Shown piece by piece: positions 12,936-49,314 of a stretch of DNA of 64,000 nt (its first letter is position 1; every line of letters starts with the position of its first letter). The DNA is taken from NCBI RefSeq assembly GCF_020515625.1, contig NZ_JAIWPJ010000003.1, positions 248,001 through 312,000 on the forward strand. Reading direction: 5' to 3'. This DNA is from Natrinema amylolyticum. GTDB taxonomy: Archaea; Halobacteriota; Halobacteria; Halobacteriales; Natrialbaceae. The notes beneath the pieces are model-generated. The model was not told the origin of the DNA. It saw only the letters and a program-made list of their open reading frames with translations, and did no database searches. Both the position numbers and the translations under genes were made by a program.

Positions 12936-15900
12936 ATGCGACCGGAAGACGAACGGTACTTCGAGGGGCTCGAGGACCAGCTCGACGAGGCCCTCGCGGT
13001 CGCCGAGCGGGCTAAAGAACGGGGCGGCGATCCGAAACCCGAAGTCGAGATTCCGGTCGCCAAGGACATGGCCGACCGTGTCGAGAACATTCTCGGGATC
13101 GACGGCGTCGCCGAGCGGGTCCGCGAACTCGAGGGCCGGATGAGCAGGGAGGAGGCCGCACTCGAACTCGCCGAAGACTTCGCCGAGGGGCGCGTCGGCG
13201 ACTACGAGACGAGAGCGGGCAAGGTCGAGGGAGCGGTCCGCACCGCGGTCGCCCTGCTGACCGAGGGGGTCGTCGCCGCCCCCATCGAGGGGATCGACAA
13301 GGTCGAAATCTTAGAGAACGACGACGGCACGGAGTTCGTCAACGTCTACTACGCCGGCCCGATCCGCTCGGCGGGCGGGACCGCACAGGCGCTGTCGGTT
13401 CTCGTAGCCGACTACACACGCGCGCTCGTCGGCATCGAGCAGTACGGCGCGCGCGAGGAGGAGGTCGAACGCTACGCCGAGGAGATCGCCCTCTACGACA
13501 AGGAGACCGGCCTCCAGTACACCCCGAAGGCCAAGGAGGCGAAATTCATCGCCAAACACCTCCCGATCATGTTGGACGGGGAGGCCACCGGCGACGAGGA
13601 AGTCTCGGGATTCCGAGACCTCGAGCGGGTCGACACCAACAGCGCCCGGGGCGGGATGTGTCTCGTCCTCGGTGAGGGGATCGCGCTGAAGGCCCCGAAG
13701 ATCCAGCGCTACACCCGCAACTTGGACGAGGTCGACTGGCCGTGGCTGCAGGACCTCATCGACGGCAACTACTACGACGACGGAGACGCGGCCGACGATG
13801 ACGACTCCGACGGCGAGGCCGACGACGAAGCGACGACCGAGGACGATGGCGACGAGGCGGCGACGGAGGACGAATCCGACGACGAGGCGGGCCCGCCCCG
13901 CGTCGAGACCTCCGAGAAGTACCTCCGAGACCTGATCGCCGGCCGCCCCGTCTTCTCTCACCCCTGTGCGAAGGGGGGCTTTCGACTGCGCTACGGCCGC
14001 GCGCGTAACCACGGCTTCGCGACCGCCGGCGTCCACCCCGCCGCGATGCACCTCGTCGACGACTTCCTCGCGACGGGCACCCAGATCAAGACCGAACGCC
14101 CCGGGAAGGCCGCCGGCGTCGTCCCCGTCGACTCCCTCGAGGGGCCGACCGTCAAACTCGCGAACGGCGATATCCGCCGGATCGACGACCCCGAGGACGC
14201 CCTCGAGATCAGAAACGGCGTCGAGGCCATCCTCGATCTCGGTGAGTACCTCGTCAACTACGGCGAGTTCGTCGAGAACAACCACCCGCTCGCGCCGGCC
14301 TCCTACACCTACGAGTGGTGGGTCCAGGACCTCGCGGCCGCGGGCGTCGACACCCAGGCGCTCGAGGACGACCCCCGTATCGACCTCGAGTTCCCCGACC
14401 CCGAGGACGCCCTCGAGTGGGCGCTGGAGTACGACGCGCCGCTCCATCCCGAGTACACCTACCTCTGGCACGACATCTCGGTCGAGACGTTCAGCGATCT
14501 CGCGGCGACCGTCGCAGACGGTCGAATCGAGCGAGACGGCGACGGCAGCGTGAACGGAAACGGGGACGATAGCATCCTCGTCCTCCCGTACGACGATACC
14601 GTCCGCGAAGCGCTCGAGACGATCGTCATCGAACACCGCCAGCGCCCCGACGCGGACCGCATCGAGATCGACGACTGGCGGCCGTTCGTCCGGACGCTCG
14701 GCTGCGAGCCCCGGCGCACCGCCGCCGACGGTGCCGCCCTCGAGCCCGAGATGGAAGACGGAGACCGGGCGACGACCGTCGAACTCGAGCGAACGTGGAC
14801 GGACGACGACCTCTCCGAACGCGCTCGGACGTGGGGGCGCGACGAGGACGGCGATAACGCCATCGAGGCGGTCAACGAGGTCGCGCCGTTTCGGGTGCGC
14901 GAGCGAGCGCCGACCCGGATCGGCAACCGAATGGGCCGCCCCGAAAAGTCGGAGAGCCGCGACCTCAGCCCACCCGTTCACACGCTGTTCCCGATCGGCG
15001 AGGCCGGCGGCGCACAGCGCAACGTCGCCGACGCCGCCAAACACGCCGAGACGATGTCGGACACGCCCGGCATCGTCGAACTGCAGGTCGGCCGCCAGCG
15101 CTGTGAGTCCTGTGGCACGGAGACGTTCAAGAACCGCTGTCCAGACTGTAACGCTCGAACGACGCCGGACTACCGCTGTCCCGACTGCGACGAACGCCTC
15201 GAGCCAGACGAGGCCGGTCGCGTCGAGTGCGATCACTGCGAACGCGAGGGCACCTGCGTCGAGCCCCGCGAGATCGACGTCAACGAGGAGTTCCGGGACG
15301 CCCTCGAGTCCGTCGGCGAACGCGAGAACGCCTTCGAGATCCTGAAGGGCGTCAAGGGACTCTCCTCGCAGAACAAGATCCCCGAACCGATCGAGAAGGG
15401 CATCCTCCGGGCGAAACACGACGTCTCCTCGTTCAAGGACGGCACCGTCCGCTACGACATGACCGACCTCCCCGTGACGTCGGTCCGCGCGAGCGAACTC
15501 GATATCGACGTCGGCCAGCTCCAGGCGCTGGGCTACGAGGAGGACATTCACGGCGAACCGCTCACTCACGAGGACCAACTGGTCGAGCTCAAGGTCCAAG
15601 ACATCGTCCTCTCGGACGGCGCGGCCGAGCACATGCTGCAGACGGCCGACTTCATCGACGACCTGCTGGAGCAGTACTACGGCCTCGAGCGGTTCTACGA
15701 GTTCGACGACCGGCAGGACCTCGTCGGCGAACTCGTCTTCGGGATGGCACCCCACACCTCTGCCGCAACTGTCGGGAGAGTGATCGGTTTCACGAGCGCG
15801 GCGGTTGGATACGCTCATCCGTACTTTCACGCCGCGAAGCGTCGCAACTGTGACGGGGACGAAGATTGCGTGATGCTTCTTCTCGACGGACTCCTCAACT

Positions 15901-16595
15901 TCAGTAAGTCTTTTCTGCCCGACCAGCGCGGGGGGAAGATGGACGCCCCCCTCGTCATGTCCTCCCGCATCGACCCCTCCGAGATCGACGACGAGGCCCA
16001 CAACATGGACGTCGTCACGCAGTACCCCCGCGACTTCTACCTCGCGACCCGCGAGCAGGCCGACCCCGGCGAGGTCGACGTCGAGATCGCCGAGGACACG
16101 CTGGGCACCGATACGGAGTACACCGGCTTCGAACACACGCACGACACCACCGACATCGCGATGGGGCCCGACCTCTCCGCGTACAAAACGTTGGGCTCGA
16201 TGATGGACAAGATGGACGCCCAGCTCGAGCTCTCGCGCAAACTCGCGGCCGTCGACGAGACGGACGTGGCCGAGCGGGTCATCGAGTACCACTTCCTGCC
16301 GGACCTGATCGGGAACCTGCGGGCGTTCTCCCGGCAGGAAACGCGGTGTCTCGACTGCGGCGAGAAGTTCCGGCGGATGCCCCTGACCGGCGACTGTCGG
16401 GAGTGTGGCGGCCGCGTCAACCTCACCGTCCACAAGGGCTCGGTCAACAAGTACATGCAGACCGCGATCCAGGTCGCCGAGGAGTACGACTGCCGGAATT
16501 ACACGAAACAGCGGTTAGAGGTGCTCGAGCGCTCGCTCGAGAGCATCTTCGAGAACGACAAGAACAAACAGAGCGGGATCGAAGACTTCATGTAG
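12936..16595 (+). CDS. polC: DNA polymerase D large subunit (DP2), intein-free
   Basis: 1219 residues, the catalytic subunit of archaeal replicative polymerase D, which works with the proofreading subunit DP1. The active-site motif NCDGDED lies near residues 969-975. Zinc-ribbon cysteine clusters are at about 723-770 (CESCG, CPDC, CPDC, CDHC) and 1138-1160 (CLDCG, CRECG). A haloarchaeal acidic linker (about 285-318, mostly D/E) interrupts the N-terminal part. No intein is present although the active-site motif is a known insertion point in this family. Codon use changes sharply for about 170 bp around that motif (15752-15925): AT-ending codons appear in a gene otherwise ending almost only in C or G. 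Confidence 0.97.
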   Translation: MRPEDERYFEGLEDQLDEALAVAERAKERGGDPKPEVEIPVAKDMADRVENILGIDGVAERVRELEGRMSREEAALELAEDFAEGRVGDYETRAGKVEGAVRTAVALLTEGVVAAPIEGIDKVEILENDDGTEFVNVYYAGPIRSAGGTAQALSVLVADYTRALVGIEQYGAREEEVERYAEEIALYDKETGLQYTPKAKEAKFIAKHLPIMLDGEATGDEEVSGFRDLERVDTNSARGGMCLVLGEGIALKAPKIQRYTRNLDEVDWPWLQDLIDGNYYDDGDAADDDDSDGEADDEATTEDDGDEAATEDESDDEAGPPRVETSEKYLRDLIAGRPVFSHPCAKGGFRLRYGRARNHGFATAGVHPAAMHLVDDFLATGTQIKTERPGKAAGVVPVDSLEGPTVKLANGDIRRIDDPEDALEIRNGVEAILDLGEYLVNYGEFVENNHPLAPASYTYEWWVQDLAAAGVDTQALEDDPRIDLEFPDPEDALEWALEYDAPLHPEYTYLWHDISVETFSDLAATVADGRIERDGDGSVNGNGDDSILVLPYDDTVREALETIVIEHRQRPDADRIEIDDWRPFVRTLGCEPRRTAADGAALEPEMEDGDRATTVELERTWTDDDLSERARTWGRDEDGDNAIEAVNEVAPFRVRERAPTRIGNRMGRPEKSESRDLSPPVHTLFPIGEAGGAQRNVADAAKHAETMSDTPGIVELQVGRQRCESCGTETFKNRCPDCNARTTPDYRCPDCDERLEPDEAGRVECDHCEREGTCVEPREIDVNEEFRDALESVGERENAFEILKGVKGLSSQNKIPEPIEKGILRAKHDVSSFKDGTVRYDMTDLPVTSVRASELDIDVGQLQALGYEEDIHGEPLTHEDQLVELKVQDIVLSDGAAEHMLQTADFIDDLLEQYYGLERFYEFDDRQDLVGELVFGMAPHTSAATVGRVIGFTSAAVGYAHPYFHAAKRRNCDGDEDCVMLLLDGLLNFSKSFLPDQRGGKMDAPLVMSSRIDPSEIDDEAHNMDVVTQYPRDFYLATREQADPGEVDVEIAEDTLGTDTEYTGFEHTHDTTDIAMGPDLSAYKTLGSMMDKMDAQLELSRKLAAVDETDVAERVIEYHFLPDLIGNLRAFSRQETRCLDCGEKFRRMPLTGDCRECGGRVNLTVHKGSVNKYMQTAIQVAEEYDCRNYTKQRLEVLERSLESIFENDKNKQSGIEDFM

Positions 16596-16953
16596 GAAAT
16601 TTTGCTCTGCGGGCGCGCCTGCGGCGCGCCCTCGGCAAAATCCTCAAAAGAGCGCGTAGCGTTCTTTTGGACTGAGCGATTCCGAAGGAATCGCTTGCAG
16701 TCGGCGCGAAGCGCCGACGACCTTGCGGAGCTTCGCTCCGCTCAGTTTCCATCAAAAGCACTCCTCCTTCCGTTCCGCTCACTCGACTCGCGGCTTGCGC
16801 CGCTCGTCTATACGCGGCGCGTAGCGCCGTGCTCTCGTTCGCTCCACGTCAGTCGTCGGCCCGCTCGCTCACCCTTCGGGTTCGCTCGCGGCGGATTTCG
16901 GTGAACTGCCTGCCCTCCCCCGGGTCACGCGGTTCGCCGCGAGTGCGGCGAAC
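16596..16953. repeat. Hairpin-array element at the 3' end of polC
   Basis: Starts right after the polC stop codon with GAAATTTTGCTCTGCG. Perfect hairpins with 3-nt loops follow: 16611-16631 (GGGCGCGCC, loop TGC), 16675-16695 (AGCGATTCC, loop GAA), 16700-16718 (GTCGGCGC, loop GAA), 16725-16741 (GCGGAGC, loop TTC), 16815-16829 (CGGCGC, loop GTA). Also present are a longer imperfect one at 16645-16669 and one with a 4-nt loop at 16932-16953. The 14-mer AAAAGCACTCCTCC at 16754-16767 also occurs, inverted, at 47977-47990. No gene is convincing here. Part of the array could act as transcription terminator for polC and for the converging hydrolase gene. Confidence 0.75.
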
Positions 16954-16980
16954 GCGCGTTCCCGGCCACGTACGACTCGA

Positions 16981-17892
16981 TTAATCGCCGCTGACGCGAG
17001 TCACGCCGGGCATCCCTTCCTTGGTGTACTGCGGCGTCGGCGAATACCGGGGGTCCGGCAGCCAGTTCCGGAGGCTCTCGTTGAACCGGTCGGGGCGCTC
17101 GCGAGGCGTCCAGTGGCCGCAGTCGTCGATTAGGTCCAGTTCGGCGTCCGGAATCAGCTCCGCCGCCCGCTTCGACCACCCGACGGGGACGAGGGGGTCT
17201 TCCCTCCCGTGGATCAGGAGCGTTGGGACGGACAGGGACTCGAGGTCGTCGACGAAGTTCGTTTCGACGCGGCCGTTGAAGGAGAGCTCGTTGTCCTGGA
17301 ACGCCTCGAACGCCCGTATCGAGCCCGGCTCCATCAGTTTCCGCCTGACATCGTCGACGAAGCGATCCGGCAATCCGCCGGCGTCCGCGACGAGGCTATC
17401 GAGGACCATGCGGACGCTCTTGGTGGAGGCACTGGCCGCGATCTTCCCGAACTCGGTCGCGCCGGGAACCTGTGAGAGGACCTTCCACTGGAGCGCGTTC
17501 GGCAGTTTGTCACCGAGTCCGTAGCTGTCGACGAGCGCCAGTCGCTCGACGCGGTCGGGATTCTCGAGCGCGTAACCGAGCGCGACGCCCCCGCCCATCG
17601 AGATCCCGGCCAGCGAGACGCGCTCGAAGGGGAGCGTCTCGAGGAACCCCTCGAGGACGTCGACGTAGGTCTCGACGGTGTGTTCGACGTCGCCCGTGCT
17701 GTTCCCGTATTCGGGCCAGTCGAGCGCGTAGACGCGGTAGTCGTCCGCGAGGGCATCGATCGCGTGTCGCCACGACACGGTCGCGTCGTCGATCCCAGCG
17801 CCGTGACAGAGGACGACCGGTGGGCCGCTCGTCCCCGCGCGCCGGTAGGCGATCCGGCAGTCACCGATCGTGGCGACACCGGTCCCGCTCAT
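16981..17892 (-). CDS. Alpha/beta-fold hydrolase
   Basis: 303 residues with the full hydrolase signature set. The oxyanion region is VVLCHGAG near 26-33. The nucleophile elbow GISMGG (Ser about 97) is followed by LGYALENPDRVERLALVD. The acid is in IHGREDPLVP (Asp about 237) and the base in DDCGHWTPRERPD (His about 262). It therefore cleaves an ester, lactone or similar bond in the cytoplasm; the substrate is unknown. No signal peptide. It converges on polC with the hairpin array between them. Confidence 0.9.
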   Translation of the reverse strand: MSGTGVATIGDCRIAYRRAGTSGPPVVLCHGAGIDDATVSWRHAIDALADDYRVYALDWPEYGNSTGDVEHTVETYVDVLEGFLETLPFERVSLAGISMGGGVALGYALENPDRVERLALVDSYGLGDKLPNALQWKVLSQVPGATEFGKIAASASTKSVRMVLDSLVADAGGLPDRFVDDVRRKLMEPGSIRAFEAFQDNELSFNGRVETNFVDDLESLSVPTLLIHGREDPLVPVGWSKRAAELIPDAELDLIDDCGHWTPRERPDRFNESLRNWLPDPRYSPTPQYTKEGMPGVTRVSGD

Positions 17893-47753: not shown

Positions 47754-47992
47754 GGTCGGCCTCCGGCCGACCGCTCGAGCAAAAAAATTCGATTAAAAAA
47801 GGCCGAGCGCGCCGACGGCGCGCTCGGTACGACTGCTTGCGTTCAACACTGGCGGAGAGGCTACCGCTAGCATCCGCGAGCGACCAACGGGAGCGAGCGG
47901 GCCGACGACCGACCCGGAGAGCGCGGTGCGAAGCGCCGCGTCACGGCGAGCGGCCGAAGGCCGCGAGCCAGGGGAGGGAGGAGTGCTTTTAT
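47754..47992. repeat. Hairpins outside the terminal repeats of the adh element
   Basis: Two strong hairpins follow the DUF5789 gene: 47754-47772 (GGTCGGCC, loop TCC) and 47803-47827 (CCGAGCGCGCC, loop GAC), with T-rich and A-rich runs beside them. They look like rho-independent-type terminators. GGAGGAGTGCTTTT at 47977-47990 is the inverted copy of the 14-mer found after polC. No gene is seen. Confidence 0.65.
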
Positions 47993-48254
47993 ACTAAATT
48001 TTGCCGAGGGCCGCCAAAGGCGACCCGTGGTTCGAAAGGCGCGAAGCGCCTTTCGTCATCAAGCGAGACCTTCGGTCTCGCGGACAGCGAGGGACCTTCG
48101 GTCCCTCGAGCAGTCGGCGCGAAGCGCCGACGACCTCGCGAATTCTGGCGGGACGTACGTCCCGCTGACCTCGCGGGAACTTCGTTCCCGCTTAGCTTCG
48201 ATTCGCTCAGTCACGAGAGAGCTTCGCTCTCTCGAACGCAGAGCAAAATTTAGT
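47993..48254. repeat. Hairpin-array element with 12-bp terminal inverted repeats
   Basis: ACTAAATTTTGC (47993-48004) and GCAAAATTTAGT (48243-48254) are perfect inverted repeats bounding 262 bp. Inside are seven hairpins, most with 8-9 bp stems and loop TTC or GAA: 48034-48054, 48063-48081, 48089-48107, 48113-48131, 48148-48165 (no loop), 48173-48191 and 48215-48233. An imperfect hairpin with loop AAA is at 48008-48026. The right terminal repeat covers the stop codon of the alcohol dehydrogenase. No coding frame is convincing. Confidence 0.8.
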
Positions 48255-49314
48255 TGAAGGTGTCGATGACCGGAATGCCGACCGTTTCGAAGTCGGTCAT
48301 CGCGTCGAGCTTGTCGCTGACGTCCTCGAGTTCGATGGTCTCGGAGACGACTTTTTCGGGCTCGAGTTTCCCCGTCGAGACCATCCGGAAGATCTCGTCG
48401 TAGCGGGTCGGGGGCATGCCCAGCGAGCCGATGAACTCGATCTCCTGCATGACCATCGCGTCCGTCGGCAGGTGGACCATCCCTTGCTCGTCTTGGGTGG
48501 TGAGCCCGACCTGGATGTGCTGCCCGCGGGTACCGAGGCTCATCACGGAGTTCTGGCTGGTGGTTTCGATCCCGAGCGCGTCCATCGCGATGCCGGCTCC
48601 GCCGTCGGTGATCGACGTGACCTCGCCGGGAACGTCGTCGACGTCCTCGGCGTTGACCGTCTCGACGGCCCCGAGTTCGCGGGCTTTCTCGAGCTTCTCG
48701 TCTTTCAGATCGACTGCGACGACGTTGCCGCCCAGCGCGTCGGCGATGTGGACCGCCGAGAGGCCGACGCCCCCGCAGCCGTGGATCGCCACCCAGTCGC
48801 CCGCGCCGATGTCGGCGCGGTGGGCGAGCGCGTGGAACGACGTCATGAAGCGACAGCCGAGCCCGGCCATGTCGACCGACGAGACGCCGCCGGGGAGTTC
48901 CACGAGGTTGTGATCGGCGACGGGCACGTGGAGTTGCTCGGCGAAGGCGCCCTGTGCCTCCTCGATGAAGCCCAGCGGCATGACGTTCTCGCAGGTGTTC
49001 GAGTGGCCACGTTGACACTGCGGACAGACCCCGTCGCCGAGGTTGAACGGCACTGCGACGTGGTCGCCCTCGGCGACTCCCTCGACGTCCTCTCCGACGG
49101 CGACGACGCGTCCGGCCGGCTCGTGGCCCAGGATCTGGCCCGGCTGCGTCTCGAGGCCAAGCCAGCCCCAGTCGCCCTGCCAGCCGTGCCAGTCGCTCCG
49201 ACAGACGCCGCAGGCTTCGACCTCGACGACCGCGCCGTCCGGCGTCGGGTCGGGCGCGTCGACGTCTTCGATCGACAGCGGTTCACCGTGTTCCTCGAGG
49301 ACTGCTGCGCGCAT
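48250..49314 (-). CDS. Zinc-dependent alcohol dehydrogenase-like protein
   Basis: 354 residues of the medium-chain family. Catalytic zinc ligands are in GVCRSDWHGW (Cys about 37), GHEPAGRVV (His about 63) and GLGCRFMTSFHAL (Cys about 152). The NAD-binding motif is GCGGVGLSAVHIA (about 174-186). The structural-zinc loop reads CPQCQRGHSNTC, with only three of four usual cysteines, so this zinc may be absent. It oxidises an alcohol or reduces an aldehyde; the substrate is unknown. Its stop codon lies inside the terminal repeat of the hairpin element. Confidence 0.92.
   Translation of the reverse strand: MRAAVLEEHGEPLSIEDVDAPDPTPDGAVVEVEACGVCRSDWHGWQGDWGWLGLETQPGQILGHEPAGRVVAVGEDVEGVAEGDHVAVPFNLGDGVCPQCQRGHSNTCENVMPLGFIEEAQGAFAEQLHVPVADHNLVELPGGVSSVDMAGLGCRFMTSFHALAHRADIGAGDWVAIHGCGGVGLSAVHIADALGGNVVAVDLKDEKLEKARELGAVETVNAEDVDDVPGEVTSITDGGAGIAMDALGIETTSQNSVMSLGTRGQHIQVGLTTQDEQGMVHLPTDAMVMQEIEFIGSLGMPPTRYDEIFRMVSTGKLEPEKVVSETIELEDVSDKLDAMTDFETVGIPVIDTFN

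Follow-up and report, generated by a model that had tools for sequence, protein, structure and literature searches.

MITEs carry terminal inverted repeats that match a known transposon, and REPs are palindromes of 20-40 bp tagged at one end by GTAG or CGTC. The haloarchaeon Haloquadratum walsbyi harbors many copies of short, non-coding, palindromic, transposase-free repeats (SMRs and PATEs), and small repeats there insert into the palindromes of other repeats (PMC3119063, available portion). In the same portion, PATEs are described as having near-terminal palindromes like those of IS605-type transposons and no terminal inverted repeats, and SMRs as too short to code, with terminal inverted repeats unlike those of known transposons and no target duplication. 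Bacterial REPs, 20-40 bp long and tagged at one end, are associated with tyrosine transposases in the available portions of two reports (PMC2817692, PMC3733652). RepRanger reports REPs in archaea, and the string "Halo" occurs 0 times in the available portion of its main text (PMC12306157). T stretches terminate transcription in Haloferax volcanii (PMC7237163, available portion).

Here, we describe a haloarchaea-wide family of non-coding, palindrome-rich repeats that is apparently undescribed; no description was found in a literature search whose scope left out most subscription journals and all preprints. By analogy, its nearest kind is the PATE/SMR group of Haloquadratum, with the bacterial REP/BIME as second analogue, and we read its members as small mobile repeats that are palindromic, lack a transposase and are akin to both. 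Like SMRs and PATEs, the element is haloarchaeal, short, non-coding, multicopy and palindromic and has no transposase, and hairpin cassettes insert into it likewise; unlike them, as far as the available portion of PMC3119063 goes, its scaffold is common to most sampled genera of the class, lies directly behind stop codons, with a preference for CTAR, and shows a strand-specific tandem G-A structure. That portion makes no mention of gene 3' ends or CTAR. PATEs are described there without terminal inverted repeats; mobile copies here appear, by eye, to end in imperfect inverted repeats (CGRTMASTAC). For a comparison with the SMRs of that portion, the element is short, its inverted ends are imperfect and no consistent target duplication was seen by eye. 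The IS605-type ends of PATEs were not found here (6 Y1_Tnp loci and 30 TnpB loci, the latter among the TnpB matches listed). With REP/BIME, as far as the available portions of the sources go, the element shares extragenic palindromes, a mosaic layout and, for many copies, a place close to an upstream stop codon, and differs in being one composite scaffold of 120-400 bp in archaea. No link to a RAYT/Y1 transposase was found: one genome with 45 element matches (G044) is without a PF01797 match, and the Y1 loci of three other genomes are without the scaffold. Because both the IS605-type ends and the RAYT link fail, we file the family as its own variant, a member of neither PATE nor REP/BIME. The T-stretch terminators of Haloferax volcanii are likewise T tracts at gene ends, sometimes with an upstream hairpin, but in the available portion of PMC7237163 they are short unrelated signals, unlike a repeat family with a conserved scaffold.

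Anatomy and spread of the element

Within the 64-kb stretch of DNA analyzed here (the window), two genes are followed by a copy of the element. The polC gene (12936-16595, + strand), a 1219-aa open reading frame whose product we take to be the large subunit of DNA polymerase D, ends with the stop codon TAG at 16593-16595, and AAATTTTGCTCTGCG comes directly after it at 16597-16611 (+). The other gene, named an alcohol dehydrogenase from sequence reading (48250-49314, - strand), ends with TAA at 48252-48250, and AAATTTTGCTCTGCG at 48251-48237 (-) shares the last two bases of this stop codon. Both copies also contain CCTCGGCAAAAT (16630-16641, +; 48009-47998, -) and AAAAGCACTCCTCC (16754-16767, +; 47990-47977, -), which confirms the sequence-only reading that the same frame lies behind both genes. 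With up to 2 mismatches, AAATTTTGCTCTGCG and AAAAGCACTCCTCC each occur twice in the 64-kb window (0.06 and 0.17 expected, respectively), and CCTCGGCAAAAT alone is no rarer than chance (5 occurrences vs 2.6 expected). Both copies are longer than first described: they run on through GTCGTCGGCCCGCTCGCTC (16852-16870, +; 47909-47891, -) into a closing hairpin that ends at 16891 in the polC copy and at 47874 in the dehydrogenase copy, and the polC copy goes further, to a tail ending near 16967.

The polC copy opens with the 5' arm of an outer stem, GGAAATTTTGC (16595-16605, +), for which covariation is seen in 63 simple copies. It continues with an internal loop, KCTGC/TCG (16606-16634, +), around a variable hairpin H1 whose type differs between species at one locus and which reads GGGCGCGCC-TGC-GGCGCGCCC here (16611-16631, +). 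The 3' arm of the outer stem, placed from sequence and copy comparison, begins with GCAAAAT (16635-16641, +) and is split by an optional array of four hairpin cassettes (16642-16745, +) that is missing in most simple copies; its second half, TTTCC, follows together with an ATC linker (16746-16753, +). Next comes AAAAGCACTCCTCCTT (16754-16769, +), the minus strand of which forms the 3' side of a central helix and then an unpaired TTTT. The variable hairpin region H4 of this helix (16770-16851, +) is followed by the GTCGTCGGCC strand of the helix and hairpin H5 (16852-16891, +), which on the minus strand show tandem GA/GA loops and a GNA triloop. The copy closes with an optional tail domain (GCCTGCCCTCCCCCGGG ... 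CCCGGCC; 16908-16967, +), a pattern present in 50 of 87 copies. Behind the dehydrogenase gene, the copy (47874-48251, -) comprises the outer stem, a long array of hairpin cassettes, CCTCGGCAAAAT, AAAAGCACTCCTCC, the central helix and H5, without a tail. One 27-nt cassette, GCAGTCGGCGC-GAA-GCGCCGACGACCT, is common to both arrays and reads on the + strand in each (16697-16723 and 48110-48136); the frames lie on opposite strands, and the earlier observation that this hairpin is inverted relative to the scaffold is thus real. The gene convergent to polC (16981-17892, -; alpha/beta hydrolase-like by eye) ends approximately 15 nt past the tail of the polC copy.

The same scaffold recurs across the family, with a length of approximately 120-400 bp. 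In the direction of the gene, it consists of the stop codon, a few bases, the outer-stem 5' arm (CGAA-x-TTTTGC), KCTGC, the variable hairpin H1 and TCG; then the 3' arm (GCAAAA-x-TTCG), sometimes split by hairpin cassettes, GAT(C/G) and AAAAGCACTCCTC; and finally the central helix with the variable region H4, GTCGTCGGCC, hairpin H5 and, in 50 of 87 copies, the tail GCCTGCCC...CCGGCC. A scan of the genome collection gave at least 120 stretches matching AAAAGCACTCCTCCYTCC, and of the 80 loci listed, 75 are haloarchaeal, nearly all from Natrialbaceae and two from Halobacterium. The five others (Streptococcus, Aquificaceae, Kaistella, Methylobacter and Shewanella) were rejected as chance matches, the rest of the scaffold being missing. 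Comparisons between copies rest on 97 distinct copies, 18 from the window's own genome and 79 from others, with a recognizable start in 91; the six dropped are four non-haloarchaeal chance hits (L069, L085, L114, L126) and two haloarchaeal copies (L057, L104), and one chance hit (L061) remains among the 91. Since the copies of one set (A2) were fetched by the word AAAAGCACTCCTCCYTCC, the conservation of AAAAGCACTCCTCCYTCC within that set is circular.

The two window loci are far from the only ones. Searching the window's own genome (4.71 Mb, 11 contigs) with words of the frame, as the sequence-only reading had proposed, revealed further copies: AAATTTTGCTCTGCG with up to 2 mismatches gave 21 matches vs 1 for a reversed control, AAAAGCACTCCTCC with up to 1 mismatch gave 19 vs 5 and exact CCTCGGCAAAAT gave 12 vs 0. 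At one exact CCTCGGCAAAAT match (L047), the surroundings look like coding sequence and the other parts of the element are missing. A covariance model of the scaffold (R1) gave 28 matches at approximately 23 distinct places in this genome. With 11 candidates scored per genome, R1 matched 213 of 292 genomes of the class and 66 of 77 genera; eight fully scored genomes of other families had 10, 19, 28, 30, 31, 35, 36 and 45 matches, and copies in other families retain the scaffold, many of them directly behind stop codons. Among 120 genomes sampled from the phylum, 11 matched, every one within the order, and no match was found in the approximately 101 sampled genomes outside it. Rfam 15 gave no match at gathering score on the elements of 12 loci (78569 bases), where just SRP RNA and tRNA were found, and only subthreshold matches on the window stretch.

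Gene ends, CTAR stops and exchange of hairpins

Nor do the copies lie at random positions relative to genes. When distances to stop codons were recorded, 62 of 91 copies were found to start -4 to +5 nt from a stop codon, with a usual start 0-5 nt past it; 18 others lie farther from a stop, and 11 have no long frame ending within 400 nt. By our own gene caller, the upstream neighbor points toward the element in 74 of the 91; of the downstream genes, 37 are convergent and 33 codirectional. The upstream genes form clusters (EngB, 8 copies, one of them from another family; acyl-CoA dehydrogenase, 7; TFS, 6; TbsP, 6; thermosome, 5; polC, 4; and smaller groups), and the same genes bear the element across genera and families (e.g., EngB, TFS, TbsP, thermosome, polC and DUF5611), with DUF5611 and PhoU among the groups that cross family borders. 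The names EngB, PurF, TbsP, MvaD, LarE, DUF5611, DUF502, DUF5813, IF2 and PhoU come from domain or family assignment; TFS, thermosome, L10e, GyrB and TrkH were named by reading C-termini and are presumed identities. Two copies lie behind SRP RNA genes and one behind a duplicated tRNA 3' end. In this last case (L054), the element is immediately preceded by a second tRNA 3' end (TTCGAATCCTGTCCCGCGCA), which lies approximately 100 nt after a tRNA-Leu gene and looks like an integration duplication. A few copies lie just upstream of a gene on the opposite strand; L014, L082, L088, L093, L120 and L130 form one orthologous group approximately 45 nt upstream of such a gene, not behind a stop. Several genomes contain inverted pairs of elements a few hundred nucleotides apart.

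The stop codons that adjoin a copy are biased in kind (TAA 36, TAG 17, TGA 2) compared to those of other genes at the same loci (TAA 111, TAG 105, TGA 219). A CTAR stop (CTAA or CTAG) ends 42 of 55 genes next to a copy vs 57 of 435 other genes; the P value of 4e-22 is too small because orthologues were counted repeatedly, and the size of the effect is clear. Presence at a given gene varies. For EngB (30 of 59 loci examined, with presence resting partly on rows that end in the EngB C-terminus), the element is found in some genomes and missing in others, one of the window's own genus included. In an empty-site comparison, EngB and polC loci without the element showed unrelated intergenic DNA or degenerate remnants.

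The hairpins within the scaffold turn over, as the sequence-only reading had supposed when it described a mosaic of modules swapped within a fixed scaffold; this is supported by differing H1 types at one orthologous locus and by gain and loss of cassettes. Among the polC orthologues of the window's own genus, of which 26 of 29 loci were readable, H1 is of type GGC in 10, CTC in 3, TGC in 2, GTC in 2 and another type in 1, and 8 loci have no intact start, several of these being visibly degenerate remnants. Six copies at TbsP have four H1 types. Downstream of polC in two genomes of the genus (L338 and L340), the elements are the same but for one base and an approximately 75-nt cassette of two hairpins flanked by CAC. 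The neighboring gene sequence is clearly different at these two loci although the elements are nearly the same, which points to a recent exchange of the whole element between species. The 27-nt cassette of the window copies also occurs elsewhere, in both orientations and at various places in the scaffold, in only 5 distinct contexts among the loci scanned.

Fold and strand preference

It is the strand antisense to the gene that gives the best fold of the scaffold, and in this respect RNA and single-stranded DNA are indistinguishable. The outer stem is nearly all Watson-Crick with compensatory changes; its pair 9, for instance, is GC in 43, AT in 9, TA in 5 and CG in 5 of 63 simple copies, with one exception. 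The Y of CTCCYTCC covaries with the R of TCRGTCG (C-G 46, T-A 36, C-A 4, T-G 2; 9 unscored; 97 copies). On the gene strand, the central helix and H5 have internal loops that are TC/TC in 61 of 87 H5 segments and 29 of 87 H4 segments, and the other strand then has GA/GA; triloops on the gene strand are TNC rather than GNA by 51:1 in H5, 45:10 in H4 and 24:13 in H1. Tandem sheared G-A pairs, like GNA triloops, are stable in RNA as well as in single-stranded DNA, and TC/TC loops would be destabilizing on the sense strand. Across the 85 copies compared for free energy (87 have the H4/H5 frame), the central/H5 half was of lower free energy on the antisense strand in 85 of 85 with RNA parameters and in 84 of 85 with DNA parameters. 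The H1 half showed no strand preference (antisense lower in 36 of 85).

Unguided folding by RNAalifold of an antisense-strand alignment of 22 simple copies gave 35 pairs, 16 of them with double changes, and in its consensus helices 1 and 2 have two-base loops of GA/GA. In this consensus structure, 98.3% of cells are paired and 86 cells have double changes vs 22.4 in shuffles (0 of 500 reached this), and pairing falls to 34-54% when partners are slid by 1-3 columns. Read on the antisense strand, wobbles are GU rather than AC by 85 vs 22 in H5 and the central helix and by 38 vs 25 in the outer stem and H1, counts taken from alignments fitted to a model that itself leans antisense (best 80 of 93 and best 60 of 71 rows, 77 and 56 of them distinct). 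The strong helix of the antisense strand is followed at once by an unpaired T4, each T of which is kept in 57-60 of 60 rows of a model-selected set (A3); polC loci, fetched by protein rather than by word, show the corresponding AAAA on the gene strand in nearly all intact copies by eye. A further T4 tract lies on the gene strand directly past the stop codon. Three other readings were considered and rejected. A general haloarchaeal hairpin habit would not explain the fold, as few TC/TC hairpins with TNC triloops occur elsewhere in the window; a kink-turn was considered by eye for the H1 internal loop and abandoned, since other families do not keep this loop; and an open reading frame on the antisense strand was likewise considered by eye and rejected.

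Mobility, rival explanations and a putative role at gene ends

Part of the family has moved recently. One genome (G254) holds four copies that are 99-100% identical over 154 nt and have different flanks, and similar sets of copies are found in G397, G162 and G163. At one G254 locus (L268), a near-identical stretch of approximately 30 nt (CCTGTACTGAACGGCAACTACG-YGTGCGAAC) lies on both flanks of the repeat, as if a tandem or att-like joint had formed. We therefore regard a mosaic family of small mobile repeats as highly probable. A search for a mobilizer with R1 at E <= 0.1 did not find the scaffold around 6 Y1_Tnp loci of three genomes or around 30 TnpB loci (among the TnpB matches listed), and an origin as an IS605/PATE element was rejected, as R1 gave nothing convincing near Y1 or TnpB genes.

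How mobility relates to the strand preference and to the stop codons can be explained in several ways. The strand preference could stem from single-stranded DNA transposition, with an IS200/IS605-type (HUH) enzyme acting in trans on the folded antisense strand, as for PATEs and REPs, and no host function. DNA parameters too favor the antisense strand in the central/H5 half (84 of 85 copies), both tandem G-A pairs and GNA triloops have high stability in single-stranded DNA too, and a target-like CTA flanks the element on one side; Haloquadratum PATEs are moreover related to IS605-type elements (PMC3119063, available portion). Against this stand the missing scaffold around the 6 Y1-transposase and 30 TnpB loci, the genome with 45 matches and no Y1 transposase match (G044) and the imperfect terminal inverted repeats of mobile copies, which misfit IS605-type ends; nor would such a mechanism give a role for retention at the same genes across families, and we consider it doubtful. 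That retention, together with covarying structure kept at old sites, also weighs against a purely selfish repeat, in which stop adjacency reflects target choice and purifying selection against insertion inside genes, although re-homogenization between copies could maintain the structure likewise. The CTAR preference, the degenerate remnants at polC and the presence or absence at EngB within the genus all fit a selfish repeat, which may be the case, with the odds leaning against it.

Two further explanations assign the element to a transcript. As a sense-strand 3' UTR structure, it would stabilize or terminate the mRNA of the upstream gene; this agrees with a tie to the upstream gene whatever lies downstream (74 of 91 toward the element; downstream convergent 37, codirectional 33) and with an outer stem and H1 that fold equally well on either strand, but the sense strand gives a clearly poorer fold of the central helix and H5, and their TC/TC loops would be destabilizing there, making this role unlikely. 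Covariation and wobbles of the G-U type (GU 85 vs AC 22, from rows fitted to the antisense-leaning model) would suit a family of small structured non-coding RNAs, antisense to the gene and made from their own promoters. In the 63 tails, however, neither a TATA-like signal nor an AT peak around -27 was seen ahead of the antisense 5' end (one TATA-like word overall), and no Rfam family reaches threshold on the 12 loci (78569 bases); such a family is improbable, and an autonomous antisense RNA gene was rejected for want of a promoter signal.

The best explanation, to which we give a probability of roughly 55%, would be a joint one, in which a mobile mosaic repeat family also serves as a transcription boundary at gene ends. 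We infer that insertion would occur preferentially at CTA(R) and be tolerated mainly at stop codons, which would leave the surviving old copies at the very 3' ends of genes. The hairpins would then be replaced as copies recombine and small hairpin cassettes insert, and the scaffold would stay. On the antisense strand, the G-A helix followed by the unpaired T4 would end antisense or convergent transcription short of the gene.

The boundary component of this explanation, taken by itself, is more tentative, with the odds leaning against it. Consistent with a putative boundary are the termination at T stretches described for Haloferax volcanii (PMC7237163), the T4 after the stop codon on the gene strand, the helix and T4 on the antisense strand and the inverted pairs of elements a few hundred nucleotides apart. 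On the strand of the dehydrogenase copy, 47 nt past the point where that copy ends, lies a classical terminator-like site, hairpin CCGAGCGCGCC-GTC-GGCGCGCTCGG followed by a T6 run (47827-47803, -); such a site would be unexpected if the dehydrogenase transcript were ended by the element. A scan for terminator-like sites found none inside either window copy, and TC/TC loops are not clearly commoner beside convergent neighbors (30 of 38 vs 18 of 31; P = 0.07). Several species of the genus have degenerate remnants behind polC, so the element is dispensable at that gene. We speculate, with less confidence again, that the family may act as a class-wide guard of gene 3' ends: a mobile repeat tamed at CTAR stops, whose antisense RNA, a helix with tandem G-A pairs and a GNA cap before U4, would end antisense or convergent transcription at selected housekeeping genes, with the inner hairpins free to turn over.

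The family lends itself to comparative study of how archaea prevent convergent and antisense transcription from running into genes, and it bears as well on how transposase-free palindromic repeats of haloarchaea move and exchange parts. It also calls for caution, as intergenic hairpins of this kind should not be read as independent terminators or small RNAs.
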